Program-made: the position numbers and the translations under genes
The notes under the pieces: model-generated
What the model was told of the DNA's origin: nothing
Database searches by the model: none
The model's input: the letters and a program-made list of their open reading frames with translations, nothing else
Shown here: in pieces, positions 1,249 through 21,986 of the stretch
Layout: each line of letters opens with the position of its first letter
How positions within the stretch are numbered: the stretch's first letter is position 1
Origin: Microbacteriaceae bacterium VKM Ac-2855
GTDB lineage: Bacteria; Actinomycetota; Actinomycetes; Actinomycetales; Microbacteriaceae
Assembly (NCBI GenBank): GCA_013204985.1
Contig: JABMLG010000004.1
Coordinates: 124,001 to 188,000 of the forward strand
Direction: 5' to 3'
Length of the DNA stretch: 64,000 nucleotides

Positions 1249-2267
1249 CAGGCGATCTCGAGCATCGCCGTGTTGATCCCGGAACCGACACCCATCAGCA
1301 GAACGCGGTTGCCCTTGGTCAGTTTCGCCGACTCACGCTGCAGCGTGATCGGGATCGAGGCCGGGCCGACGTTGCCGAGCGACGGGTACGTCAGGGGCAC
1401 CCGATCGCGATCGATGCCGATCGCCTTGATGAACGCGTTCGTGTGCACATCCGACACCTGGTGCATGATGTAGCGGTCCATGCCGCCCCAGTTCCAGTCG
1501 CGCTTGGCGTCCTTCCAGGCGGAGACCACCAGCTCCATGCCGCCCTTGAGCAGCGCCTTCGCGTCGGTGAACATGCCGTCGACGCTGCCGACGCAGAGCT
1601 GATTGAACTGCGTCGCCGCGCGGGTCACGCCGCCGAGGATGCGGTGCCCGTTCGGATGCGCATCCGCCGGGCCGAGGATCGCGGCGGCCGCGCCGGAGCC
1701 GAGCGTGAGGCTGGCGAACTCGCTCATGAAGTCTTTGCGCTTGATGCCCTCGCGCAGCAGACGCGTGATCGTGTTGCGCTGCACCTCGTCGGCGTCCTCG
1801 CCGTCGATGATCATCGCGTACTTGATCTGGCCCGAGTCGATGAGCTGCGCGGCCAGGCTGATGCCGTTGATGAAGCCGAGGCAGGCGTTGGCGATGTCGA
1901 AGTTGATGGCCGAGGAGGGCAGGCCGAGTCCATGATGCATCCGCACGGCCACGCTGGGCTCGAGGTGCGGGCGGGTGACGCTGGTGTTGATCAGCAGGCC
2001 GATCTCGTCGGCGCGGATGCCGGCCTCCGTCAGAGCACGCTTGCCCGCGTCGATCGCGGCCGCATCGAAGCCCTGCTCGGGGCCCCAGTTGCGGCGTTCG
2101 AACACGCCGGCGACACGCTGCAACAGCCCCATGGGCAGCTTGAGACGCTTGAGGGCGGGCGCGAGGCTGGCGTCGATCTCCTCCGAAGTGGTGATGCGCG
2201 GTGCGATGGTGCTCGCGACAGACAGCAACGCGACGTTGCGGTGCGTGGTCGTTGCGTTTCCGTCCAA
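1245..2267 (-). CDS. oleA: OleA, thiolase-fold acyl-CoA condensing enzyme
   Basis: 340-residue 3-oxoacyl-ACP synthase III family protein. OleA joins two long-chain acyl-CoAs head to head into a beta-keto acid, the first step of olefin synthesis. The active-site Cys is in NFDIANACLGF (Cys129). The catalytic His is probably in DRYIMHQVSDVH and the Asn in SLGNVGPASI. I chose the TTG start at 2267 because AGGGAG lies 5 nt upstream and homologues usually begin close to the motif GNAT-HRNVALLSV; an in-frame ATG at 2339 would add 24 residues that look non-coding. It is followed immediately by oleBC. KASIII identity is certain; the OleA assignment rests on sequence style and the OleBC neighbour. Confidence 0.9.
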   Translation of the reverse strand: MDGNATTTHRNVALLSVASTIAPRITTSEEIDASLAPALKRLKLPMGLLQRVAGVFERRNWGPEQGFDAAAIDAGKRALTEAGIRADEIGLLINTSVTRPHLEPSVAVRMHHGLGLPSSAINFDIANACLGFINGISLAAQLIDSGQIKYAMIIDGEDADEVQRNTITRLLREGIKRKDFMSEFASLTLGSGAAAAILGPADAHPNGHRILGGVTRAATQFNQLCVGSVDGMFTDAKALLKGGMELVVSAWKDAKRDWNWGGMDRYIMHQVSDVHTNAFIKAIGIDRDRVPLTYPSLGNVGPASIPITLQRESAKLTKGNRVLLMGVGSGINTAMLEIAW

Positions 2268-2455
2268 CGGAACTCCCTGTCGAGTTGTAGCTCTGGTCGC
2301 CGTATTTTCATGCGGATGGTGGATGGTCGGCACGGACATGCCGCGATGATTTTACGCTGGTCCGCGCTCGACGCTCGCTGGATGCCCGCTGGACGCCTAC
2401 TCGACGGCCACAGGGGTTGACAATACGGGCGCGGATCACGCTGGCGGAGCCGGTC

Positions 2456-2540
2456 GTCCTCGGGCGAGGACGAATCGAACGGATGCGGAGGTGACCGGCG
2501 ATTCTGCCCGCATCCGCTTCGTATCTCCTCGGCTGAGGAG
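2456..2540. repeat. Composite palindromic element between oleA and the peroxidase gene
   Basis: A symmetric structure. Hairpin GTCCTCGGGCGAGGAC (2456-2471) is followed by arm GAATCGAACGGATGCGG (2472-2488). After a 19-nt centre containing GTGACCGGCG comes arm CCGCATCCGCTTCGTATC (2508-2525), then hairpin CTCCTCGGCTGAGGAG (2525-2540). The inner arms resemble the TGAAACGAAGGAT ends of the 112-bp elements at 9426 and 24044, so it may be a shortened relative. It lies between divergent genes, so it is unlikely to be a terminator. The rest of the 2268-2635 gap holds promoters only. Confidence 0.5.
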
Positions 2541-2623
2541 GTACGGCGCGCCGGCTGCCCTTCGCCGGGAGGGAGCGACGACCCCCTTCGAGGCGCACAG
2601 CCCCGCAGAAGCACGGAGATAGC

Positions 2624-2629
2624 TAGGCT
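2624..2629 (+). promoter_or_regulatory. -10 hexamer for leaderless peroxidase transcript
   Basis: TAGGCT with exactly 6 nt before the GTG start at 2636 and no Shine-Dalgarno sequence in between, the usual spacing for leaderless actinobacterial promoters. Confidence 0.5.
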
Positions 2630-2635
2630 CGACAC

Positions 2636-3124
2636 GTGACGGATATCTACGACATCGAGTTCGAGACGGCCACCGGCGAGACCACCACCCTCGCCCCCTA
2701 TCGCGACGAGTTGCTGTTGCTGGTGAACGTCGCCAGCAAGTGCGGCCTCACCCCGCAGTACGGCGAACTGCAGACGTTGAACGAGACGTACGACGGCCTC
2801 AACATCGTCGGGTTCCCCTGCAACCAGTTCGCCGGGCAGGAGCCCGGTACGAACGACGAGATCCAGGAGTTCTGCTCGACGACGTACGGCGTCGACTTCC
2901 CGGTCGTCGCCAAGATCGCGGTGAACGGTGCCGACCGGCACCCGCTCTACGCCGAGCTGACGCAGGCGACGGATGCCGCGGGCGAGGCCGGCGATGTGGC
3001 CTGGAACTTCGAGAAGTTCCTCGTGAAGAACGGCGCCGTGATCGCGCGCGTACGCCCCCGCGAGTCGCCCTCGACGCCCGAGTTCATCGCGCTGGTGGAA
3101 CAGAACCTGCCGGTCTCGGCGTAG
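2636..3124 (+). CDS. gpx: Glutathione peroxidase family thiol peroxidase
   Basis: 162-residue cytosolic peroxidase that reduces H2O2 and organic hydroperoxides. The catalytic Cys is in NVASKCGLTPQY, the conserved Gln in GFPCNQFAGQEPG and the Trp-Asn pair in VAWNFEKFLV, so the tetrad is complete. As a Cys (not Sec) enzyme in a bacterium it probably uses thioredoxin or mycothiol systems rather than glutathione. The GTG start is set by a leaderless-type promoter. It is divergent from oleA and monocistronic. Confidence 0.93.
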   Translation: MTDIYDIEFETATGETTTLAPYRDELLLLVNVASKCGLTPQYGELQTLNETYDGLNIVGFPCNQFAGQEPGTNDEIQEFCSTTYGVDFPVVAKIAVNGADRHPLYAELTQATDAAGEAGDVAWNFEKFLVKNGAVIARVRPRESPSTPEFIALVEQNLPVSA

Positions 3125-3270
3125 CGTTCCGGCTCACCCGGTGGGCCGTGCGGCCCCCAGCACGACCAGAGCGATCATTCGTCGCATCCGAACCCCCATC
3201 CGTTCCCCACAGGCTACTCCGGCCACTGCTCCGACACGTGCCCGAAACGAGCGGCGCCTACGGTGTTCGG

Positions 3271-4668
3271 ATGCAGAACGGTCAGAAGAAACGGATGCGG
3301 CTGGGGCTCTTCGAGGTCGCGTCGCCGCAGGTGGGCGGCACACTGAGTTGGCCGCATCCGCGGAGCGAGTCGACACGGTTCGCCGAGCTGGACTACTGGA
3401 TCCACATCGCGCAGGTGCTCGAGAACGGCGGCTTCGACTTCCTGTTCTTCGCCGACGGCTACGGGTACCCGTTCCTCGACGGCGACCTGCCCGACGTCGC
3501 GATCCGCGGCGGCATCAACTTCCCCTCCCTCGATCCATCCCTGTACATCCCCACGCTGGCGCGCGAGACCGAGAGGCTCGGCTTCGTGGTGACGAGCTCG
3601 ACGGGCCTGGACCATCCGGCGCAGACGGCGCGACGTTTCGCGACGCTCGACCACCTCACCGGCGGCCGGATCGGCTGGAACATCGTCACGGGCGCGTCGC
3701 AGGATGCGGTGGCGGCGCTGTTCGGCCACGACGCGATGGCGCAGCACGCCGACCGGTACGCCGCCGCGAACGAGTACGTCGACGTCGCCCTGCAGCTCTG
3801 GGAGGGCAGCTGGGAGGACGACGCCGTGCTCGCCGACAAGGCCACCGCGACCTACGCGGACCCCGCCAAGCTGCACCGCGTCGAGCACAGCGGCACCGCG
3901 TACCGCTCCTCCGGCTACCTCGCCGCCCCGCCGTCCCCGCAGCGCACGCCACTGCTCTTCCAGGCCGGCACCTCGGCGCCCGGGCGCGAGCTCGCCGCGA
4001 CGAACGCGGAGTGCGTCTTCGTGCAGGGCACGACGCCGGCGCTGACCGCGGCCGCGGTGACGGACATCCGCGCACGGGCGTCGGCGCACGGCCGCGATCC
4101 CGAGTCGATCGCGATCCTGGTGGGCGCGACCGTTGTGGTGGCGCCGACGCGCGAGGAGGCGCTGGCGAAGCGCGCCGAGTTCGACGCGCTGCAGAGCGAC
4201 GAGGTCGTGGCGACGCTCTACGCCGGCAACACCGGCATCGACCTGCTCTCGCTCGATCCGGATCGCGATCTGACGCAGGCGCTCGAGGGTGGTCGGGTGG
4301 GGCAGATGGGGGTCTCGAACATCGAGCGATTCCTGCCGCGAGACGGCAAGCCGGGGCCGACCGTGCGCGAGATCCTCGACCAGCTCCGCGGTCGGGGCAC
4401 CCGCGGCTTCGCGGTGACCGGTTCGACGGAGGAGGTCGCGGACGCTCTCGAGGAGCTGATGGACGCGACCGGCCTCGACGGCTTCCTGCTGGAGCAGACC
4501 GTCTCGCCGGGCGACATCGAAGACTTCACGTCGCTCGTAGTACCCGAACTGCGGCGCCGCGGCCGGGTGCCGCTCGCGCCCGACCCCGGCCCGACGTTCC
4601 GCGAACGCATGACCGGCGGCACCCGGCGCCTCGCCTCGACGCATCGCGGGGCACGCTACTCCCGCTGA
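3271..4668 (+). CDS. NtaA/DszA-type FMN-dependent monooxygenase (LLM class)
   Basis: About 465 residues, bacterial luciferase-like TIM barrel of the nitrilotriacetate/desulfurization monooxygenase branch, using reduced FMN from a separate reductase. Typical segments are GGFDFLFFADGYGYP, GRIGWNIVTGASQDAV, YRSSGYLAAPPSPQRTPLLFQAG and GTRGFAVTGSTEEVADAL. The open frame extends upstream to 2740 but overlaps the peroxidase gene. I use the ATG at 3271; an ATG at 3295 (MRLGLFEVASPQVGG) is a good alternative. No reductase gene is adjacent, and the substrate is unknown. It converges on the ECF sigma gene. Confidence 0.85.
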   Translation: MQNGQKKRMRLGLFEVASPQVGGTLSWPHPRSESTRFAELDYWIHIAQVLENGGFDFLFFADGYGYPFLDGDLPDVAIRGGINFPSLDPSLYIPTLARETERLGFVVTSSTGLDHPAQTARRFATLDHLTGGRIGWNIVTGASQDAVAALFGHDAMAQHADRYAAANEYVDVALQLWEGSWEDDAVLADKATATYADPAKLHRVEHSGTAYRSSGYLAAPPSPQRTPLLFQAGTSAPGRELAATNAECVFVQGTTPALTAAAVTDIRARASAHGRDPESIAILVGATVVVAPTREEALAKRAEFDALQSDEVVATLYAGNTGIDLLSLDPDRDLTQALEGGRVGQMGVSNIERFLPRDGKPGPTVREILDQLRGRGTRGFAVTGSTEEVADALEELMDATGLDGFLLEQTVSPGDIEDFTSLVVPELRRRGRVPLAPDPGPTFRERMTGGTRRLASTHRGARYSR

Positions 4669-4725
4669 CGCTGGCGCGGACGCGGACGCTGCTGCGAATG
4701 CGAACGCGAAAAGAGGGGTGGGCCG

Positions 4726-5934
4726 TCACGGCCGAGCCTGGGCCGAGAGCCACGCGCGCAGCGGCGCATCCGTGGTGAGGGCGATCGCGCGGGCGTAGGC
4801 GGCGGACGCGTCGCGCCCGGCGCTCGCGAGCAGTGCGGCGCGGGTCGCCCACGCCGGCTGGAACCGCTCGGCCCCGGTGATCGCGTCGAGGGCGGCGAGG
4901 CCCGCCTCGGGGCTCTCGTCGCGGGCGATCGCCGCGGCGAGCGCCACCTGCGAGCCGAGCGTCGGGGTGTCGGCGACGAGCGCGGAGTAGAGCGCACGCA
5001 GTGCAGCCCAGTCGGTGCGGCCCGTCCGCGCCCGGTCGGTGTGCACCGACTGGATGGCCGCCTCCCACTGGAACCGTCCCGGTGCGCCCAGCATCGATGC
5101 CGTGTGCAGCATCCGCTCGCCGTCGGTGATCGCCGCCGCGTTCCAGAGCGCGGTGCTCTGCTCGTCGAGCGGGATGTAGACGCCCGGCACCCGCGATCCC
5201 GCGCGAGCAAGGCCGAGCGTCAGCAGCGCCGCGAGCCCCCACGCCTCGGGTTGCGTGCCGAGCAGTCCCGCAGCGGTCACGGCCAGGTAGCGCGCCTCAT
5301 CCGCCATCGACGTGCGCACCTCGGGCCCCGCGACGAGCGCCTCGATCGTGTAGCAGGCGTAGATCGCCTCGAGCACCGGCGGCAGCCGCGTCGGCATATC
5401 CTCGAGACCCGGCACCTGAAACGGGATCCCCGCGTCACGGATCCGCCGCTTCGCCCGCACCAGTCGCTGCGCCAGCCTCGCCGTCGGCACGGCGAAAGCG
5501 GATGCGATCTGCCGCGCTTCGAATCCGAGCACCGTCTGCAGCATCAGCGGTGCACGGATGCCGACCTCGATCGCCGGATGCGCGCACGCGAACAGCAACT
5601 CGAGACGCTTGTCGGGGATGGCGGAGGGATCGGCGGCGTGGTCGAGTGTGACGGCGTCCACGTCGTCCAACGGCGCTCGGGTGCGGCGCGCGGCCGAGCC
5701 GAGCAGGTCGCGTTGCCGGTTGCGGGCGACGGTGAGCAGCCACGCCTCCGGGTTCTCGGGCACGCCGGTCTCGGGCCAGCCGCGCAGGGCCCGCTCGAAC
5801 GCGTCGGCGAGGGCGTCCTCCGCGAGCGCGACGTCGCGGGTGGGCGCTGCGAGCAGGGCGAGCAGCCGCCCGTACGAGGAGCGGGCCGCGACCTCCGCCG
5901 CGGCCCGCGCCCGCTCGCGGCTCAGCTCGTCCAC
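4726..5934 (-). CDS. ECF42-type RNA polymerase sigma factor with C-terminal extension
   Basis: 402 residues. Sigma region 2 is at the N-terminus (EDALADAFERALRGWPETGVPENPEAWLLTVARNRQRD) and region 4 around residues 110-165 (LMLQTVLGFEARQIASAFAVPTARLAQRLVRAKRRI). A helical, TPR-like C-terminal extension covers the second half. This length and the DGPF partner gene just upstream are the hallmarks of group ECF42, which lacks a classical anti-sigma factor and depends on its C-terminal extension. The start overlaps the DGPF gene by 13 nt, so they form one operon. The signal and targets are unknown. Confidence 0.9.
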   Translation of the reverse strand: MDELSRERARAAAEVAARSSYGRLLALLAAPTRDVALAEDALADAFERALRGWPETGVPENPEAWLLTVARNRQRDLLGSAARRTRAPLDDVDAVTLDHAADPSAIPDKRLELLFACAHPAIEVGIRAPLMLQTVLGFEARQIASAFAVPTARLAQRLVRAKRRIRDAGIPFQVPGLEDMPTRLPPVLEAIYACYTIEALVAGPEVRTSMADEARYLAVTAAGLLGTQPEAWGLAALLTLGLARAGSRVPGVYIPLDEQSTALWNAAAITDGERMLHTASMLGAPGRFQWEAAIQSVHTDRARTGRTDWAALRALYSALVADTPTLGSQVALAAAIARDESPEAGLAALDAITGAERFQPAWATRAALLASAGRDASAAYARAIALTTDAPLRAWLSAQARP

Positions 5935-6296
5935 GCGCCGTTCTCGACGTGCGTCGCGCTCGGGCGGATCTCGATCGGACCCCAGTACGCGCTCGGCGCC
6001 TTCTCGGCCCAGGCGATCGCGGCGTCGAGGTCGGGTACGTCGATCACGAAGGTGCCGCCGAGCTGCTCCTTCGTGTCGGCGTAGGGGCCGTCCTGCACGG
6101 TCAGTGCGCCGTCGACCAGGCGGAGCGTCGAGGTGGTGGAGGAGGGTTGCAGCACCTCGCCCGAAACGAGGACCCCCGCCTCATGCGCGGCCTGCGCGTA
6201 ATCGCGGAAGGCCGCCTGACCCTCCTCGAGGGCCACCTCGTCGAGCTCTCCGGCGGCCTGCATCTCGGGGTAGTGCAGCAGCAGTGTGTAACGCAT
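5922..6296 (-). CDS. YCII/DGPF domain protein, ECF42 partner
   Basis: 124-residue ferredoxin-like (dimeric alpha/beta barrel) YCII-related protein. The DGPF-type motif appears as VQDGPYADTKEQLGGTFVIDVPDLDAAIAWAEKAP. It is the first gene of the operon, and AAAGGA lies 9 nt before the ATG. DGPF proteins are consistently encoded next to ECF42 sigma factors and are probable targets or co-regulators of that sigma factor; the molecular role is not established. Confidence 0.9.
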   Translation of the reverse strand: MRYTLLLHYPEMQAAGELDEVALEEGQAAFRDYAQAAHEAGVLVSGEVLQPSSTTSTLRLVDGALTVQDGPYADTKEQLGGTFVIDVPDLDAAIAWAEKAPSAYWGPIEIRPSATHVENGAWTS

Positions 6297-6379
6297 GGTG
6301 TCGTCCTTTCATCGGTGTCTTGCCGTGATGACGATCGACGCCGCCTTCGATCGACACCTCCTCCGAAAAGGGTGCGGGG

Positions 6380-8011
6380 TCAGACGGCGCCCCCGAAGGC
6401 CCAGGGTTCGCGGTCGCCGCGGAGTCGTGCGGCGAGGGCGATGGCCTGCTCATCGGTGAGGGACGCGACGTAGTCGAGGATGCCGCGGGCCCGGCCCAGG
6501 CGTACGAGATCGGCGGGGCCGGCCGCATCCGCCGGCAGCCACTCGGGCGCGTCGACCCGCAGACGGAAGTAGCCGTCGGTCGCGAGCTCGATCAGGTCGA
6601 GCAGCTTCTGCGGCGCGCGAGCGCCGTCGCGCGCATCCGAGAGCCACGAATCCAGATGCGTCACCAGCACGTCGAGCACCCGCGACTGACCGCGCTGGTA
6701 GGTCGCGAAGTCGGGGCGATCGATCACGAAGCGGGTGTGCACGAACTTCAGCACGGCCACGTCGTGCCACGCATCCGGCAGCAGCGAGACGTGCCCGCTG
6801 CGCACGTTCGGTGTGGCGAGCACGAGCACCGACTGCTGCAGCCGAGCGATCCAGCTCGAGACGAAACGCTCGATGTTGCGCTCGGTCTGCGTGGATCCGT
6901 CGAACGGCACCGCGAGCAGACCCTCGACCAGCTCGGTCGCGACACGCTCGACGGAGGCACGGAACAGCTCATCGCCGGCGATCCACGGGTCGCGGGCGAC
7001 CAGCCGCCGGCGCAGCATCTCGAGCGAGTGACCCGGCGCGCGCACCCACAGCTCGGCGGCGTCGAGCTCGGCGAGAGCCGACTGCTCGCGCAGGAAGGCG
7101 CGGAACTCCACGGCCACGGCCGCCTGCTGCAGCACGCCCGCGCGGTAGAAGTCGTCGAGGTCGTGCAGCGAGTAGGCGATGTCGTCGGCGACGTCCATCA
7201 CCGAACACTCGAGGGTCTGCTGCCACGGCGCGATCGCGGTGAAGTTGCTGCGCGCGTCGAGCAGGTCGTGCAGGTCGAGCGTGTAGGCCGAGAACTTCGG
7301 TGGCGCGGTCTCCCACTGGCTGGCGGTGGAGCCGCGGGGCAGCTCCGTCGGATCGCTCGTGTCGATGTCGGGCCGGCACTGGAAGCGGCCCCACGGATAC
7401 TTCAGGACCGCAGCGCGGGAGGCGGCGGTGAGATTCAACCCGGCCTCGACCGTCTCGCAGACGTCGAGTTCGGAGAGGATGCGGAACGACTGCGCGTTGC
7501 CCTCGAAGCCCTCCGCAAGGCCGAGCCGTTCGCGGGCCAGCCGGTCGAGTACCTGCTCGCCGAGGTGGCCGAACGGTGGATGTCCGAGGTCGTGCGCCGA
7601 CGCGGCCGCCTGCACGACCACCGGATCGCATCCGCCGAGCCGGTCGACCAGGTCGCGCTGCGCCCGATCGGTGGTGGTCAACTGCATCGCGATCGCGCGG
7701 GCGACGGCGGTCACCTTGATCGAGTGCGTCAGCCGATTGTGCACGACCTGCCCGACGCCGCTGGGCGAGATCACCTGGGTCACCGCCGAGAGCCGGGCGA
7801 AGTAGGGCGAGAAGCGGATGCGCTCCAGATCGACCCGGTACTCCGGGAACTCCTCGCCCGTCGAGAAGCGGTCGACCGCCTCGAGGATGCGCCTCTCGCG
7901 GCGCCAGTCGCGCGGCCGACGATGCTCGCCCACAGTGCGCACACCGCCGGTGTTCGCGCCGAGCAGCGCGCCCTCGTCGGCGGGGGTCGGGGGAACAGCG
8001 GCCTCGCTCAT
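6380..8011 (-). CDS. dgt: Deoxyguanosinetriphosphate triphosphohydrolase-like HD protein
   Basis: 543-residue cytosolic HD-domain phosphohydrolase that would cleave dNTPs to deoxynucleoside plus triphosphate. Metal-binding residues are visible in NRLTHSIKV (His96), AAASAHDLGHPPFGH (His140, Asp141) and SVMDVADDIAYSLHDLDDF. Actinobacterial members are longer than enterobacterial Dgt. The start ATG overlaps the stop of the DUF2809 gene (ATGA). A TAGGGT hexamer 6 nt before the ATG suggests an additional internal leaderless promoter. Confidence 0.92.
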   Translation of the reverse strand: MSEAAVPPTPADEGALLGANTGGVRTVGEHRRPRDWRRERRILEAVDRFSTGEEFPEYRVDLERIRFSPYFARLSAVTQVISPSGVGQVVHNRLTHSIKVTAVARAIAMQLTTTDRAQRDLVDRLGGCDPVVVQAAASAHDLGHPPFGHLGEQVLDRLARERLGLAEGFEGNAQSFRILSELDVCETVEAGLNLTAASRAAVLKYPWGRFQCRPDIDTSDPTELPRGSTASQWETAPPKFSAYTLDLHDLLDARSNFTAIAPWQQTLECSVMDVADDIAYSLHDLDDFYRAGVLQQAAVAVEFRAFLREQSALAELDAAELWVRAPGHSLEMLRRRLVARDPWIAGDELFRASVERVATELVEGLLAVPFDGSTQTERNIERFVSSWIARLQQSVLVLATPNVRSGHVSLLPDAWHDVAVLKFVHTRFVIDRPDFATYQRGQSRVLDVLVTHLDSWLSDARDGARAPQKLLDLIELATDGYFRLRVDAPEWLPADAAGPADLVRLGRARGILDYVASLTDEQAIALAARLRGDREPWAFGGAV

Positions 8012-14477: not shown

Positions 14478-15437
14478 TCAATGTCCCAGGATGCGCGCGA
14501 CCAGCGCATCCGCGAAACCGTCCTCGACCTCGAGGGCGACGGCGGTACGCGACAGGCCGGCGTCGACGTAGCCCGTGTAGCGGGTGCGGAGGTCGACGAT
14601 GGTCTGGCCGCGGCCCGGCCCGCGGGTGGTGTCGACCTCGACGGGCACGATCGGAGCCAGACGAAGCCCGCCCGTGCCCAGCGCGACGGCGACGGCGAGC
14701 GGGTCGTGCAGCGCGGCGGACCGGCCGCCGAGGATCGGCACGTAGAAGGCGAAGTAGTAGTCGAGCGCCTGGCCGATCGCGACGGCGAGCGGATCGCCGG
14801 AGCCGAGGAGCTCGTCGCGATGCCGCTCCTCGATGCGCTGGGTCATCGTCACGTCGAGCCCGACCATCACAACATCCCAGTCGGCGGCGAACACCGCAGC
14901 GGCCGCCTCGGGATCGTGCCAGATGTTGGCCTCGGCGACCGGGGTGACGTTGCCCGGATGCTGAGCGGATCCGCCCATGATGGTCACCGAGTGCACCATC
15001 GCCGGCAGATCGGGGTAGCGCTCGAGCGCGATCGCGAGGTTCGTCAGCGGCCCGACGGCGATCACACGCAGGGCTCCCGGATGCGCGAGCGCCAGCCGGT
15101 GCAGCAGCGCGGCGGCATCCTCATCCGCCACCGACGCGGCAGCAGCGGTCAGGGCGACGTTGCCGAAGCCGTTGTCGCCGTGCACCTGCGGCGACCCTCC
15201 CGCGTACTCCTCGGCGAGGAAGTGGTGCGCCCCGATAGCGACCGGCACGTCGTCGCGGCCCGCCAGAGCGAGCAGCGCGAGCGTGTTCGCGGCGGCCGTG
15301 GTCGAGTCGGTGTTGCCGCTCACCGTGCCGATACCGACGATCTCGGCCTCGGGCGAACGCAGCAGGTAGGCGAGCGCGAGCGCGTCGTCGATCCCGGTGT
15401 CGCAGTCGAAATAGAACGGTGAAGCAGGGGCGGGCAT
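14478..15437 (-). CDS. Nucleoside hydrolase (IU-NH family)
   Basis: 319-residue inosine-uridine preferring nucleoside hydrolase. The family signature [13 protein letters not shown] binds Ca2+ at the N-terminus. [26 protein letters not shown] and [15 protein letters not shown] complete the active-site segments, and the late Asp/His motif is [10 protein letters not shown]. It cleaves ribonucleosides to base plus ribose in salvage. The ATG is set by a TACTCT hexamer 7 nt upstream. Confidence 0.92.
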
Positions 15438-15444
15438 GCGCACG

Positions 15445-15450
15445 AGAGTA
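15445..15450 (-). promoter_or_regulatory. -10 hexamer for the nucleoside hydrolase gene
   Basis: TACTCT on the minus strand, 7 nt before the ATG; leaderless arrangement. Confidence 0.4.
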
Positions 15451-15582
15451 TCCGGGGCACGTTGCGGCGAGGTTTCAGACGAAGGCTCGCTCGATACCGG
15501 TATTGACGGACCCCGCCACGACCCGATGGCGCTGGCTAGCATTGAAGAGCCCCTCGATCGCCCGCGAACGTCAGGATCCACC

Positions 15583-16629
15583 GTGCCGCTCACCCCCGGA
15601 ACGCTCACCCTCGGCTACAAGGCCTCGGCCGAACAGTTCGCCCCGCGCGAGCTGGTCGAGATCGCCGTCGCGGCCGAGAGGCACGGCATGCAGTCGGTCA
15701 CCGTCAGCGACCATTTCCAGCCGTGGCGGCACACGGGCGGGCACGCACCGTTCTCGCTGAGCTGGATGGCTGCCGTCGGTGAACGCACGAGCGACATCCT
15801 GATCGGCACCAGCGTGATGACGCCGACTTTCCGCTACAACCCGGCCGTGCTGGCGCAGGCGTTCGCGACGATGGGCTGCCTGTACCCGGGCCGGATCATG
15901 CTCGGTGTCGGCACCGGCGAGGCTTTGAACGAGATCGCCACCGGCTTCCGCGGCGCGGGCGAGCAGGACTGGCCCGAGTTCAAGGAGCGCTTCGCGCGGC
16001 TGCGCGAATCCGTCGCCCTGATGCGCGCGCTCTGGAAGGGCGACCGGGTCAGCTTCGAGGGCGAGTACTACTCGACGCACGAGGCCTCGATCTACGACGC
16101 GCCGGAAGGCGGCATCCCCGTGTACATCGCGGCGGGCGGCCCCGTCGTCGCCAAGTACGCCGGCCGCGCGGGCGACGGCTTCATCTGCACCTCCGGCAAG
16201 GGAATGGATCTCTACACCGAGAAGCTGATGCCCGCCGTGGCCGCCGGGGCCGAGGCCGCTGGCAAGTCGATCAGCGCCGTCGACACCATGATCGAGATCA
16301 AGCTCAGCTACGACACCGACCCCGATCTCGCTCTCGAGAACACCCGCTTCTGGTCGCCGCTGTCGTTGAGCAAGGAGCAGAAGCACGACATCACCGACCC
16401 GATCGAGATGGAGAAGGCGGCGGATGCGCTGCCGATCGAGGAGATCGCCAAGCGGTGGATCGTCGCATCCGACCCCGAGGCCGCGGTCGAGCAGATCAAG
16501 CAGTACGTCGATGCCGGCTTCCGCCACCTGGTCTTCCACGGCCCGGGCGGCGACCAGGCCCGGTTCCTCGAGCAGTTCGAGCGCGACCTCGCGCCGCGGC
16601 TGCGTGCCCTGGACCTCCCCGAGGCGTGA
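15583..16629 (+). CDS. fgd: F420-dependent glucose-6-phosphate dehydrogenase homologue
   Basis: 348-residue LLM-fold enzyme close to mycobacterial Fgd1. Matching segments are [87 protein letters not shown] and [27 protein letters not shown]. It oxidises glucose-6-phosphate and reduces F420 to F420H2. GTG start at 15583 with AGGA 6 nt upstream. First gene of an overlapping F420 operon (GTGA overlap with cofC). Confidence 0.93.
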
Positions 16630-17246
16630 GCGCGGCCGCAACGCGCTGGTCGATCGTCGTGCCGGTGAAGGGCACGCCGACCGCGAAGTCGCGCCTGGGC
16701 TCCGATCCGCAGCTGGCCGAGGCGATCGCCGCCGACACCGTGGCTGCCGCCCTCGTGGTCGCGCGGGTGCTCGTGGTGACCGCGGGCCCGATGACCGCGT
16801 TCGACGGCGCCGAGTTCATCGCGGATCCGGGCCGTGGCCTGGGTGACGCGATCGCCGCCGGGGTGCGCGCGGCCGGCAGCGGCCCCGTCGCCGTGCTGCT
16901 CGGCGACCTGCCCGCGCTCCTGCCCGTCGAACTGAGCGCGGCGCTGGCCGCGGCGCAGGCGCATCCGCGGGCGATGGTGCCGGATGCGGACGGCATCGGT
17001 ACCGTGCTCGTCACAGCGCGCTCCGGCCACGAGCTGGTGGCCTCGTTCGGCGACGACTCCCGCGCGGCGCACCGCGCCGCGGGCTACGTCGAACTCGAGG
17101 TGGCGGGCGACTCCGGCCTGCGCCGCGACGTCGACACCATCGAGCATCTGGCCGCGCTGTTCGACGCCGGTCGGCTGGGCGCGCGGACCGCCGCTCGCGC
17201 CGCCGCGCACGTGGCCGCGACGAACGTCTCGGAAGAAGCAGCATGA
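16626..17246 (+). CDS. cofC: CofC/FbiD guanylyltransferase for F420 synthesis
   Basis: 206-residue nucleotidyltransferase. The N-terminus carries [18 protein letters not shown], the CofC signature, followed by [17 protein letters not shown] and [10 protein letters not shown]. It activates 2-phospholactate or phosphoenolpyruvate with GTP to make the F420 side chain. GTG start overlaps the fgd stop, and its own stop overlaps the fbiC ATG, so the three are coupled. Confidence 0.92.
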
Positions 17247-19672
17247 GCCACGATGCACTGAGCCACGACGCACTGATCCACGACGCACTGGATCGCGCCG
17301 AACGCGATCGCGCCACGACGCAGGCGGATGCGGAGCTGCTGCTGGCGGCTCGGGGCGACGACCTCGAGCGCCTGCTCGATCTCGCGTCGAGCATCCGCGA
17401 CGAGGGCCTCGCCGCGACGGGTCGCGACGGCGTGATCACGTACTCGCGCAAGGTGTTCGTGCCGATAACGAAGCTGTGCCGCGATCGCTGCCACTATTGC
17501 ATCTTCGTCGACACGCCGGGCGGTCTCGCGGCCAAGGGCGAGTCGACCTTCATGGAGCCGGAGGAGATCCTGCAGGTCGCCCGCGACGGCGCGGCACTGG
17601 GCTGCAAGGAGGCGCTGTTCACCCTCGGCGACCGCCCGGAGGATCGCTGGCCCGTCGCCCGGCAGTGGCTCGCGGAACACGGCTACTCCTCGACGATCGA
17701 GTACATCCGCGCGATGGCGATCCGGGTCACCGAGGAGACGGGGCTGCTCTGTCACCTCAACCCCGGCGTGATGAGCTGGGCCGAGCTGCAGCGGCTGCGC
17801 CCCGTCGCGCCGTCGATGGGCATGATGCTCGAGACCACCGCGACGCGGCTCTGGAGCGAGAAGGGCGGTGTGCACTACGGCTCGCCCGACAAAGACCCGG
17901 CACTGCGGATGCGCGTCATCGACGATGCCGGCCGCGCGCGCGTCCCGTTCACCACAGGGGTGCTGCTGGGGATCGGTGAGAACGACGCCGAGCGCGCCGA
18001 GGCGCTGTTCGCGATCCGCGGCTCGCACGAGACCTTCGGCCACGTGCAGGAGACCATCGTGCAGAACTTCCGGGCGAAACCGCGCACGGCGATGCAGAAC
18101 GAGGTCGACCTCGAACTGCAGGAGTACATCGCCGCGGTCGCCGTCGCACGCCTGGTGATGGGCCCGATCGCGACGATCCAGGCACCGCCGAACCTCACGG
18201 ATGCGCAGGAGCTCGGCCTGCTGATCCGGGCCGGCATCGACGACTGGGGCGGTGTCTCACCGCTGACCGCCGATCACGTGAACCCCGAGCGGCCGTGGCC
18301 GAACATCGACGACCTCGCCACGCTGACCCGCGCGAGCGGTTACGAGCTGCGCGAGCGGCTGACCGCGCATCCGCCCTACCTCGCCGACCCCGAGACCTGG
18401 ATCGACGCGCGCCTGCACCCGCACCTGGAGGCGCTGACCGACCCGTCGACGCACCTCGCGATCCAGGATGCGCCGGTCGTCGGCCGCCCCTACGAGGCCT
18501 CGCTGAGACGCCCCGTCGGCACGCGCACCCCGCTGATCGAGCGCGCCGCGGCCGACCCGGCCGGGCTCTCGGACCCCGACTACGTCGCGCTGCTGAACAC
18601 CGATGGCAACGAGCTGGATGCGCTGGCCGCACTCGCCGACGACGTGCGCCGCGAGCGCGTCGGCGACGAGATCTCCTTCGTCGCCAACCGCAACCTCGAC
18701 TCGACGATGTTCGGCCCCTCAGAACTTCTCGGCCCGGATGCGCTGACCCACGAGCGCCTGAGCGAACTGGTCGCCGAAGCGGTCGAGCTGGGCGCCAGTG
18801 AGATCTGCCTGCAGGGCGCCGTCTCGGCCGCGCCCGGCTACGACTACCTCGACCTGATCGAGCGGATCCACACGCAGGCCCCCGAACTGCACCTGCACGC
18901 CTTCCGCCCCGCGGAGGTGCTCGACGGCGCGGCCCGCCTGGGGCTGACGCTCGAGCAGTTCCTGGTCCGGTTGCGCGAGGCGGGCGTGGGCACCGTGCCC
19001 GGCACCGGCGCGCGCATCCTCGACCAGCGCATCCGCGACGTGCTCAGCGGCAACACCGACCCGAGCGTCGAGAGCTGGGCGGATGCGATCACGACCGCGC
19101 ATCGGGCGGGCCTGCGCTCGACCGCGACGATGGTCTACGGCCACATCGAGACCCCCGAGCAGCAGCTCGCGCACCTGCGCCGGCTGGCCGAACTGCAGGA
19201 TGCGGCGATCGCGGCCGGGGTCGGCGGCTTCACCGAGTTCATCGCGATGCCGTTCGTGCCGTCGGAGATGCTTCTTCCGGACGGTGGGTCGGTCGACGGC
19301 GCCCGCCCCGGCCCGTCCCTCCGCGAGACCCGCGCGGTGCACGCCGTCGCACGGCTGCTGCTCGCCGGGCGGATCGACAACGTGCAGACCGCCTGGACCA
19401 AGGTCGGCCTGCGCACCGCGCAGACCCTGCTGATGGGCGGCGCGAACGATCTCGGCGGCCTGCTGCTCGACGGCACGATCCGCCCCGAAGCCGGCGCCGA
19501 GGCCTACCGTCAGCTGAGCCTGGCCGATGTGCAGCACGTGGCGGCCGAGCTCGGTCGGCCCGTGCGCCAGCGCAGCACCGATTACGGGGTGCCGACGCAT
19601 CCTCTGACCGCCGCGAACGCCGCCGCGCCCGTGCGGATGCGCCTGCCGCTGCGCGAGCGCCGCGCGTCGTGA
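17243..19672 (+). CDS. fbiC: FbiC (CofG-CofH fusion) with degenerate CofH radical-SAM site
   Basis: 809 residues; mycobacterial FbiC is about 50 longer. FO synthase joins 5-amino-6-ribitylamino-uracil and tyrosine into the F420 chromophore using two radical-SAM halves. The CofG half (about 50-400) is intact: KLCRDRCHYC holds Cys79, 83 and 86. The CofH half (about 440-809) has the right body (NRN at 482-484, PELHLHAF, GVGTVPGTGARILDQRIRDVLS, STATMVYGHIE, GGFTEFIAMPF, MGGANDLGG), but where the [4Fe-4S] CxxxCxxC should follow NRN it reads NRNLDSTMFGPSELLGPDAL with no Cys. No frameshift explains this. The enzyme may be half-active or altered. Confidence 0.9.
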   Translation: MSHDALSHDALIHDALDRAERDRATTQADAELLLAARGDDLERLLDLASSIRDEGLAATGRDGVITYSRKVFVPITKLCRDRCHYCIFVDTPGGLAAKGESTFMEPEEILQVARDGAALGCKEALFTLGDRPEDRWPVARQWLAEHGYSSTIEYIRAMAIRVTEETGLLCHLNPGVMSWAELQRLRPVAPSMGMMLETTATRLWSEKGGVHYGSPDKDPALRMRVIDDAGRARVPFTTGVLLGIGENDAERAEALFAIRGSHETFGHVQETIVQNFRAKPRTAMQNEVDLELQEYIAAVAVARLVMGPIATIQAPPNLTDAQELGLLIRAGIDDWGGVSPLTADHVNPERPWPNIDDLATLTRASGYELRERLTAHPPYLADPETWIDARLHPHLEALTDPSTHLAIQDAPVVGRPYEASLRRPVGTRTPLIERAAADPAGLSDPDYVALLNTDGNELDALAALADDVRRERVGDEISFVANRNLDSTMFGPSELLGPDALTHERLSELVAEAVELGASEICLQGAVSAAPGYDYLDLIERIHTQAPELHLHAFRPAEVLDGAARLGLTLEQFLVRLREAGVGTVPGTGARILDQRIRDVLSGNTDPSVESWADAITTAHRAGLRSTATMVYGHIETPEQQLAHLRRLAELQDAAIAAGVGGFTEFIAMPFVPSEMLLPDGGSVDGARPGPSLRETRAVHAVARLLLAGRIDNVQTAWTKVGLRTAQTLLMGGANDLGGLLLDGTIRPEAGAEAYRQLSLADVQHVAAELGRPVRQRSTDYGVPTHPLTAANAAAPVRMRLPLRERRAS

Positions 19673-20484
19673 GCGGCCCACCCGCCGACTCCCGGCACGC
19701 CGAGTACCTCGCGCGTCGGGCCGCGGTGCTGCACGCGGTCGGCGGGGGTCCGGCGGGCGGCGGTCTGGGCGATGGTCTGGCGGGCGATGGTCTGGCGGGC
19801 GGCGGTCTGGCGGGCGGCGACGGGCCGCTCATGGTGCTGCTGCCGGGGTTCGGCGGGCTCGACGAATTCGAATTCCTCGCACCGATGCTCGCGAGGCGGC
19901 ACCGGGTGCTCGCGCTCGAACTCGCGGATGCGCCCTTCGACGAGGTCGTCGCGCACGTGCACGCGGCGCTGCCCGTCGAGCCGCTGACCCTGGTCGGATT
20001 CTCCTTCGGCGCGCTCGTCGCCCTGGCTGTGGCCGAGGAGGTGCCGTCGCTCGATGCCCTGGTGCTCGGCAGCGGACGACTCGAGCCCGACGATGCGTTC
20101 ACCCGTTTCGCCCGGCTCTGGCTGCGCCTGCGCGAGACCGACCCCGATGCCCTGCCCGAACTCGAGCGGTTCGCGCTGCTCGGGCCGGCCTCGCGCGACG
20201 ACGCGCGCATCCGCAAGACGGCGGGGGCGCAGCTGCGCGCCGCTCTCGAGGTGGACCTCTCGGCACACCAGGTCGCCGCGCCGACCCTCGTGCTCGCCGG
20301 CGAGCACGACGCTCTGGTCGCGCGCGAGCACTCCGAGCGCCTGTTCGGCTCGTTCGACGACGCCCGCCTCGAGACGCTCGACGCCGGCCACGCGCTGCTC
20401 GCCGAACGACCCGCCGAGGTGCTGGCGCTGATCGAGCGCTTCCTCACCGACACCGCGCATCCGCTGGTGCGAGTCGCCGGATGA
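19669..20484 (+). CDS. Alpha/beta hydrolase in the F420 operon
   Basis: 271 residues. A Gly-rich insert at about residues 21-46 is encoded by a 12-15 bp repeat (GGTCTGGCGGGCGGC-like units, 19762-19820) before the hydrolase core. The nucleophile elbow is GFSFGA, Asp is probably in AGEHDALV and His in DAGHALLAERP. GTGA overlap with fbiC upstream and 4-nt overlap with the flavin monooxygenase downstream. The substrate is unknown; it may act on the product of the following Baeyer-Villiger-like enzyme. Confidence 0.82.
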   Translation: MSGPPADSRHAEYLARRAAVLHAVGGGPAGGGLGDGLAGDGLAGGGLAGGDGPLMVLLPGFGGLDEFEFLAPMLARRHRVLALELADAPFDEVVAHVHAALPVEPLTLVGFSFGALVALAVAEEVPSLDALVLGSGRLEPDDAFTRFARLWLRLRETDPDALPELERFALLGPASRDDARIRKTAGAQLRAALEVDLSAHQVAAPTLVLAGEHDALVAREHSERLFGSFDDARLETLDAGHALLAERPAEVLALIERFLTDTAHPLVRVAG

Positions 20485-21986
20485 ACGCGCCGGTCACGGA
20501 GGCACGCGACGTCGACACCCTCATCGTCGGCGCCGGATTCGCCGGACTCGGCGTCGCGATCCGGCTCACGCGGCAGGGCGACACCGACTTCGTGCTGCTC
20601 GAGCGCGCCGACGACGTGGGCGGAACCTGGCGAGAGAACGTCTACCCCGACGTCGCCTGCGACATCCCCTCGCACCTGTACTCGTACTCGTTCCGGCCGA
20701 AACCCGATTGGTCGGCGTACTTCGCCCCGGGCGCCGAGATCCAGCAGTACCTGCGCGATGCGGCCCGCGAAGAGGGTGTCCTGCCGCGGCTGCACCTCGG
20801 CGTCGAGGTGCTCGAGATGCGCTGGCACGACGCGGATGCGCGCTGGGACGTGAGCACAACGGCCGGGTCGTATCGCGCTCGCGCCCTCATCCTGTGCGCC
20901 GGTCGCCTCTCGGAGCCGCGCATCCCCGCCGCCGACGGGCTGGAGTCCTTCGACGGCCCGCTGTTCCACTCGGCCCGCTGGGATTCCTCCGTCGAGCTCG
21001 GCGGGAAGCGCGTCGGCATCGTCGGCTCCGGCGCGTCGGCGGTGCAGCTGCTGCCGCATCTAGCGCGCGAGGCGGCGAGCGTCACGCTCTTCCAGCGCAG
21101 CGCGCCGTACGTGGTGCCGCGCCGCAACCAGGAGTACTCGGTTGCCGAACGGCGGGCGTTCAGCCGGGTGCCCGGCGCGGTCGAACGGCTGCGCTCGCGG
21201 CTGTTCTGGGCCATGGAACGCGGTTTTGCGGGCCGTGTGGCGACGCCCGGCTTCCTCGACCGGTTGCGCGCGGAGGCGCTCGATCATCTGACCGCGCAGG
21301 TCCCGGATCCGCAGGTGCGCGCGACGCTCACCCCCGACTACGAGATCGGCTGCAAGCGCGTGCTGCTCTCGGACGACTACTACCCCGCCCTCGCCCAGCC
21401 GCACGTGACGGTGGTGCCCTCGCCGCTCGCCCGCGTCGCCGGCTCGACCGTGGTCGCGGTCGACGGATCCGCTCACGAGCTCGATGTCCTCATCCTCGCC
21501 ACCGGCTTCCAGGCCACCCGGCCGCCCTTCGCCCGGCGCGTGTTCGGCCGTAACGGTCGGCTGCTCGCCGACAGTTGGAGCGACGGGATGCGCGCCTACG
21601 CCTCGACCACGGTGCACGGGTATCCGAACCTGTTCGTGATCAACGGACCCAACGCCAGCCTCGGCCACAACTCCGCGGTCTTTATGATCGAGACGCAGAT
21701 CGACTACGTGCTGGGCGCTCTGGCTGCTCTGGCTGCTCTGGTTGCTCTGGTCGAGCAGCCCTCGCTCGAGGTGAGCCGCGCCGCCGAAGACGCGTACGTC
21801 GCCGAACTCGACGCGCTCGCCGCCGACACGGTGTGGACGAACGGCGGATGCGGCAGCTGGTACGTCGACGCCGCGAGCCGCCGGCTCACCCTGCTCTGGC
21901 CCGACTTCGCCTACGTCTTCCGCCAGCGCGTCGGCGCCTTCGACCCGGCACCCTACGCCGCGCCGGCGCTCGACCCGACGCCGTAG
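20481..21986 (+). CDS. Class B flavin monooxygenase (Baeyer-Villiger type)
   Basis: 501 residues with two Rossmann motifs: FAD-binding VGAGFAGLGVAIRL at the N-terminus and NADPH-binding GIVGSGASAVQLLP near 175. The Baeyer-Villiger fingerprint appears as FDGPLFHSARWD between them. VGGTWRENVYPDVACDIPSHLYSYSF is typical of cyclohexanone-type monooxygenases. It would insert oxygen next to a ketone or oxidise a heteroatom. Residues 411-422 are a simple LAALAALVAL run from a 9-12 bp DNA repeat. Last gene of the coupled series starting at fgd. Confidence 0.88.
   Translation: MNAPVTEARDVDTLIVGAGFAGLGVAIRLTRQGDTDFVLLERADDVGGTWRENVYPDVACDIPSHLYSYSFRPKPDWSAYFAPGAEIQQYLRDAAREEGVLPRLHLGVEVLEMRWHDADARWDVSTTAGSYRARALILCAGRLSEPRIPAADGLESFDGPLFHSARWDSSVELGGKRVGIVGSGASAVQLLPHLAREAASVTLFQRSAPYVVPRRNQEYSVAERRAFSRVPGAVERLRSRLFWAMERGFAGRVATPGFLDRLRAEALDHLTAQVPDPQVRATLTPDYEIGCKRVLLSDDYYPALAQPHVTVVPSPLARVAGSTVVAVDGSAHELDVLILATGFQATRPPFARRVFGRNGRLLADSWSDGMRAYASTTVHGYPNLFVINGPNASLGHNSAVFMIETQIDYVLGALAALAALVALVEQPSLEVSRAAEDAYVAELDALAADTVWTNGGCGSWYVDAASRRLTLLWPDFAYVFRQRVGAFDPAPYAAPALDPTP

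Follow-up and report, generated by a model that had tools for sequence, protein, structure and literature searches.

The 64,000-nucleotide stretch of Microbacteriaceae bacterium VKM Ac-2855 analysed here (contig JABMLG010000004.1, positions 124,001 to 188,000; hereafter the window) contains an fbiC gene that encodes a fusion of CofG and CofH, the enzymes that make 7,8-didemethyl-8-hydroxy-5-deazariboflavin (FO), the chromophore of F420. The CofH half is devoid of the cysteines that hold the radical S-adenosylmethionine (radical-SAM) cluster, and we refer to a CofH half or protein of this type as CofH*. We propose that CofH* and a flavin monooxygenase encoded downstream of it together replace the radical-SAM CofH. 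Judged from the sequences, the functional replacement of CofH by this pair is well supported by genomics and highly likely, while the particular chemistry, a quinone methide route, is put forward tentatively; taken whole, chemistry included, the proposal is probably the best explanation of the data. The occurrence of the pair in many Actinobacteria suggests an unrecognised O2-dependent route to F420.

The open reading frame at 17243-19672 (forward strand) specifies an 809-residue CofG-CofH fusion. Its CofG half scores 453.8 bits against TIGR03550 (cut-off 213.35) and contains, at residues 77-86, the motif KLCRDRCHYC that was pointed out in a prior reading of this DNA from its letters and open reading frames (the sequence-only reading). 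By contrast, the CofH half, residues 431-809, has a single cysteine, C522, and no CxxxCxxC. The NRN at residues 482-484 (18686 on) is followed by LDSTMFGPSELLGPDAL, where canonical counterparts of the same family have NRNINFTNVCYTGCRFCAF. Upstream of fbiC, fgd and cofC both score above their cut-offs. These data bear out the claim of the sequence-only reading that the F420 locus is intact but for the lost CofH motif. Cysteines elsewhere in the CofH half, which that reading named as a refutation, amount to C522.

Against TIGR03551 the CofH half falls below the cut-off of 374.1 bits, with 333.7 bits as a protein and 301.1 in the genome search, and its match to PF04055 covers profile positions 25-164 only, the first 24 positions being missing. 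The CofH/MqnC C-terminal domain PF19288 is present in FbiC (51.3 bits, cut-off 27). No NCBIfam release 20.0 model matched the window CofH* half above its cut-off, and the same was true of a Nocardia CofH* that stands free. CofH* is not filed as a CofH by family, because the cluster motif that defines CofH was tested for and is absent, but by its position in the pathway it appears to work like one.

Comparison with canonical CofH shows which residues were given up. Of the 214 invariant positions of canonical CofH, 74 are kept and 66 are lost in CofH*, the losses including the three cysteines as well as G107 and E173 (canonical numbering), residues common to distant homologues. H552, T588, H634, E665, Q715, W718 and D736 are among those retained. 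One arginine, R555, has been gained: it is found in all 53 CofH* proteins compared, at a position occupied by serine in 17 of 17 canonical CofH proteins. The CofH* fold is a confident barrel of the CofH/MqnE family type and resembles the aminofutalosine synthase MqnE (6xi9/6xig). Unlike CofH*, MqnE has the cysteine motif in the alignment, belongs to the radical-SAM enzymes and acts in menaquinone synthesis. The tyrosine lyases ThiH and HydG differ as well, being radical-SAM enzymes with clusters and sharing 12-15% identity.

The loss of the motif is shared by a large group of proteins. Among 299 sampled genomes of the family, 69 had an FbiC match, and the loci were fetched and typed: 49 are without the cluster motif, 18 carry the canonical CYTGCRFC and 2 are fragments (67 typable). 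Both fragments stand outside the 49 and the 18; that of G198 lies at a contig end and is of canonical type (82% to canonical), and that of G177, matched only over query residues 694-798, has a monooxygenase beside it. Both CofH states occur inside the numbered genera g12 and g76. A GTDB scan with a cysteine-less profile returned 253 relatives, of which the best 80 loci were analysed; all 80 are cysteine-less, a state that was partly selected by the profile. They come from Rathayibacter, Agreia, Subtercola, Humibacter, Arthrobacter, Sanguibacter, Promicromonospora, Oerskovia, Nocardioides, Kineococcus, Nocardia, Pseudonocardia, Actinomycetospora, Actinoplanes, Tsukamurella, Gordonia and others, and two records (L133, L189) are titled Acidobacteria, although bin titles may mislead. 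Some GTDB loci are the same strains or contigs as family genomes, and the counts are not additive. When 53 CofH* proteins were placed in a tree together with canonical CofH (17 proteins) and 9 distant homologues, they grouped as one clade (support 0.924).

Taken alone, loss of the motif might have come from a pseudogene in decay or from a mistake in sequencing or assembly. However, the cysteine-less proteins, from 49 genomes of the family and 80 loci of the GTDB scan, have long open frames and varied loop lengths. When the window is compared with L124, the relative closest to it, the ratio of nonsynonymous to synonymous substitution rates (dN/dS) is 0.15 for CofG, 0.26 for CofH* and 0.31 for the monooxygenase, values that indicate purifying selection on all three genes in that one pair. 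The recurrence of the same form in both sets rules out a frameshift, assembly error or pseudogene, and the finding of a conserved clade refutes this explanation, to which we attach next to no probability. The sequence-only reading had likewise seen no simple frameshift and had proposed an alignment with FbiC/CofH proteins of the family; typing of the family loci gave 49 cysteine-less and 18 canonical ones.

A wider draw on the class comprised 394 genomes, 253 with CofH above cut-off and 20 with sub-cut-off hits only. Eleven of these 20 hold CofH* by sequence and nine were not shown to hold CofH*. Of these nine, G396 and G625 have canonical-type pieces, and G335, G378, G394, G563 and G678 gave hits of 30-36% or none. 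The other two, G617 (L265) and G341 (L267), both fragmented assemblies, have CofG and neither CofH nor CofH* on the stretch seen.

The flavin monooxygenase, a conserved neighbour that had no place in the sequence-only reading, is the constant companion of CofH*. Among the matches listed, FbiC and the monooxygenase are the only window genes matched in all nine neighbourhoods first compared. By scripted count, a same-strand monooxygenase lies downstream in 48 of the 49 CofH* family loci, and at the 49th there are 88 nucleotides of contig left. None of the 18 canonical family loci has a downstream monooxygenase, with at least 1481 nucleotides visible in each. The gene is also downstream in 80 of the best 80 of the 253 GTDB relatives, where adjacency was not selected, and by coordinates next to CofH* in 11 of 11 loci of the class draw, three of which (G000, G164, G215) overlap with the family set. 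In the best 80 loci the two genes overlap in 59 and lie within 100 nucleotides in 66, with a median gap of -4 nucleotides; as starts were chosen automatically and a hydrolase homologue separates the genes in 15 of the loci, these counts may be a few too high. Where the CofH* gene is free-standing, it abuts the monooxygenase gene or overlaps with it.

All linked monooxygenases fall into a single clade (support 0.967) that contains 91 linked proteins and none of the 19 unlinked homologues. Two unlinked monooxygenases with 53% identity, from G569 and G375, both fall outside it, and no CofH* was found in the 16 kb inspected around them. The conserved CofH* clade and its constant monooxygenase partner support the third option of the sequence-only reading, that FO is made differently here. 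Further homologues (L234-L243), 48-52% identical to the partner monooxygenase and from genomes without an FbiC match, adjoin the linked clade in the tree; these might reveal the ancestral substrate.

The window monooxygenase is a putative type I Baeyer-Villiger enzyme, for which NADPH- and O2-dependent ester formation is predicted. It contains the type I Baeyer-Villiger fingerprint FxGxxxHxxxW as FDGPLFHSARWD, with H163 and W167 invariant. Its best solved relatives, at ~200-210 bits, are the phenylacetone and steroid monooxygenases. The active-site pair of phenylacetone monooxygenase, D66 and R337, has its aligned counterparts in D61 and R293, which are invariant in 52 of 52 aligned proteins. 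The CofH* partner differs from these relatives in being shorter (501 versus 542-549 residues), in forming its own clade among the homologues tested and in being genetically tied to CofH*. Neither of the two partner monooxygenases scanned had a match above cut-off in NCBIfam release 20.0.

The host assembly (4.7 Mb, 26 contigs, estimated 100% complete) has one FbiC locus, and a profile search found no second CofH in it. Host FbiA and CofE score above their cut-offs, and with cofC and fgd present every F420 step searched for was found except canonical CofH. The same holds more broadly for the accompanying genes: FbiA is present in 38 of 38 CofH* genomes (above cut-off in 37), and CofE exceeds its cut-off in all 28 of 28, a set that includes one genome with canonical FbiC as well. 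Thus, the suggestion of the sequence-only reading that a separate CofH supplies the activity is not upheld in this host.

The radical step could nevertheless still be a radical-SAM reaction, with the CofG cluster serving both halves or an unrecognised enzyme acting in trans. The intact CofG is in keeping with this idea, as is the presence in the host of seven other PF04055 proteins, namely LipA, MoaA, MiaB, HemW and members of the Rv2578c, MSMEG_0568 and YydG families. All seven were typed above family cut-offs and none is CofH-like, and as a CofH replacement they were rejected, though PF04055 may miss some radical-SAM enzymes. In G221, a single-contig CofH* relative, the PF04055 matches besides FbiC are only MoaA, MiaB, HemW, LipA and an Rv2578c member, and the idea leaves the monooxygenase unexplained. 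We therefore hold it to be very improbable. The YydG-family protein, a radical-SAM peptide epimerase by its match to TIGR04078 (332.2 bits, cut-off 300), is encoded on host contig C12, outside the window (L105:1283-2242).

The arrangement of the genes in 22 genomes is consistent with a replacement of CofH by the pair. In seven, a fusion of CofG and CofH* is the sole representative of the two enzymes. Another nine encode an unfused CofG and a CofH*, with no canonical CofH hit: Saccharopolyspora (G300), Actinoplanes (G302), Nocardia miyunensis (G306), two Pseudonocardia (G307 and G309), Kineococcus (G312), Actinomycetospora (G313), Trebonia (G314) and Gordonia amarae (G315). In the first five of these CofG and CofH* are on separate contigs, and in G. 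amarae the order is CofH*-monooxygenase-CofG. A third homologue in the Actinoplanes genome is MqnC (454.7 bits, cut-off 428.1). The CofG tree (94 tips) requires at least 4 changes of CofH state, where 200 label shuffles give 18 or more, and by topology the CofG of N. miyunensis, a protein without a CofH half, is placed among Nocardia proteins of the fused canonical type. On the simplest account, the CofH*-monooxygenase cassette can take the place of a CofH half, and that half may then be lost.

How the pair might do this can be framed against the known reaction, in which CofH converts the tyrosine side chain to a 4-hydroxybenzyl radical that adds to a diaminouracil, and CofG closes the ring (PMC8498797, PMC8210684). 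In the proposed route, the monooxygenase, with flavin adenine dinucleotide, NADPH and O2, would convert a carbonyl compound derived from tyrosine, either 4-hydroxyphenylpyruvate or 4-hydroxyphenylacetaldehyde, to a 4-hydroxybenzyl ester. Phenylacetone monooxygenase converts a benzyl ketone to a benzyl ester. The 4-hydroxybenzyl ester would shed its carboxylate to give p-quinone methide, an electrophile with the carbon skeleton of the 4-hydroxybenzyl radical. CofH* would hold 5-amino-6-ribitylaminouracil and couple its C5 to the quinone methide, giving the same adduct as CofH makes, and CofG, with its cluster motif intact, would close the ring to FO. By our own arithmetic, 4-hydroxyphenylpyruvate + O2 + 2[H] would give quinone methide + oxalic acid + H2O, and quinone methide + C9H16N4O6 would give C16H22N4O7; p-quinone methide and the diaminouracil would thus sum to the CofH product by formula with no extra redox step. 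The pair may even represent a second origin of the F420 chromophore, a two-gene cassette, free-standing or CofG-fused, in which quinone methide coupling takes place inside a former radical-SAM barrel. This possibility, for which we would claim little, would include an O2-dependent counterpart of the oxygen-sensitive radical step, swapped in repeatedly in Actinobacteria, a point that we hold just as loosely.

A different role for CofH* would be that of a non-catalytic scaffold or product-binding domain, with the monooxygenase by itself supplying CofG with its substrate, or else forming a precursor whose reaction with the diaminouracil is spontaneous. The missing cluster residues accord with such a role, as do the dN/dS of CofH*, higher than that of CofG in the one pair compared, and the free-standing CofH* genes that abut or overlap the monooxygenase gene. 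But a scaffold would have no need to keep pocket residues (the pocket location of the kept residues being assumed), and the conserved CofH invariants and the confident barrel argue against it. The sequence-only reading had offered a scaffold or substrate-binding domain as one option; it fits in part, in that the fold and many CofH residues are kept and the cluster residues are lost. We regard the scaffold as unlikely.

Several points weigh against the pair acting as a CofH replacement or against the chemistry proposed for it. The monooxygenase substrate is guessed from solved relatives in a broad family, and Baeyer-Villiger attack on an alpha-keto acid could give decarboxylation instead. We found no report in the literature of F420 or FO in any CofH* organism. 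The PF04055 match of the CofH half is just above the cut-off (31.1 versus 29.5 bits), R591 is not invariant (41 of 53 CofH*), and when the fingerprint pattern was run on five linked monooxygenases, L169 failed to match. One genome, G398 (L288), has a fused CofG-CofH* and partner monooxygenase plus a CofH that is above cut-off by score. Finally, six of the 22 genomes, five Nocardia (L146, L171, L172, L177, L188) and one metagenome-assembled genome, have canonical FbiC plus the CofH*-monooxygenase pair, and in genomes with both forms the pair could make another product. The neighbours of the pair differ among the three Nocardia loci inspected (L146, L171, L188).

These six genomes speak for the view that the pair makes something other than FO, such as a modified deazaflavin or a diaminouracil-derived metabolite, and that genomes with CofH* only salvage FO or use another deazaflavin. 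Salvage is conceivable from G006, a related genome of the same family, which has FbiA, a CofC-like protein and CofE, no CofG or CofH match, and importer-like genes beside fbiA. However, CofG is kept in CofH* genomes, in many cases as a fusion with CofH*, and its gene lies beside fgd, cofC or fbiA in several of them. As CofG acts on the CofH product (PMC8498797), salvage would make CofG useless. We consider this view improbable and favour replacement of CofH by the pair.

With the FbiC/CofG-CofH FO synthases of Actinobacteria and archaea the system described here shares the fused order, the intact CofG motif, the barrel and C-terminal domain of CofH, the setting in an fgd-cofC-fbiC locus and the presence of FbiA and CofE in the genome. 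It differs in that CofH* lacks the cluster motif and further radical-SAM residues and has a new invariant arginine and a flavin monooxygenase neighbour. According to a 2021 review, all producers studied share one universal mechanism with two SAM-radical domains (PMC8498797), and another paper names the oxygen sensitivity of FO synthase as a possible reason for higher FO titres under oxygen limitation (PMC11917521). Among open-licence papers we found no description of a cysteine-less CofH, its monooxygenase partner or an O2-dependent FO route. If true, a natural O2-using replacement would overturn the rule of two radical-SAM domains and mean that annotations in many actinobacterial genomes need correcting. 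It would also be a case of a radical-SAM barrel put to new use after losing its cluster, and would give production hosts an aerobic route to FO and F420.

Table 1 Features of the fbiC region, in window positions
Feature	Positions	Strand	Evidence or remark
fgd	15436..16629	+	TIGR03554, 651.3 bits (cut-off 420)
cofC/fbiD, guanylyltransferase	16626..17246	+	TIGR03552, 116 bits (cut-off 105); start picked by hand
CofG half of fbiC; radical-SAM motif KLCRDRCHYC intact at 17471-17500	17243..18532	+	TIGR03550
fbiC, CofH* half, radical-SAM barrel fold without cluster cysteines	18533..19672	+	
NRN and replaced, shortened loop (canonical CofH there: INFTNVCYTGCRFCAF)	18686..18757	+	Alignments
R555 codon	18905..18907	+	Invariant in CofH*
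Alpha/beta hydrolase, an inconstant gene separating fbiC from the monooxygenase	19669..20484	+	PF00561, 53.9 bits
Putative Baeyer-Villiger-type flavin monooxygenase, CofH* partner	20481..21986	+	PF00743; steroid/phenylacetone monooxygenases are the best solved relatives

One further locus deserves mention. In G006 (L115, G006:C1:1956900-1968000) fbiA overlaps the ATPase gene of a set encoding a substrate-binding protein, a permease and an ATPase (2119-6587). By eye, the set resembles a BtuFCD-type importer, and FO uptake and salvage through it are possible.

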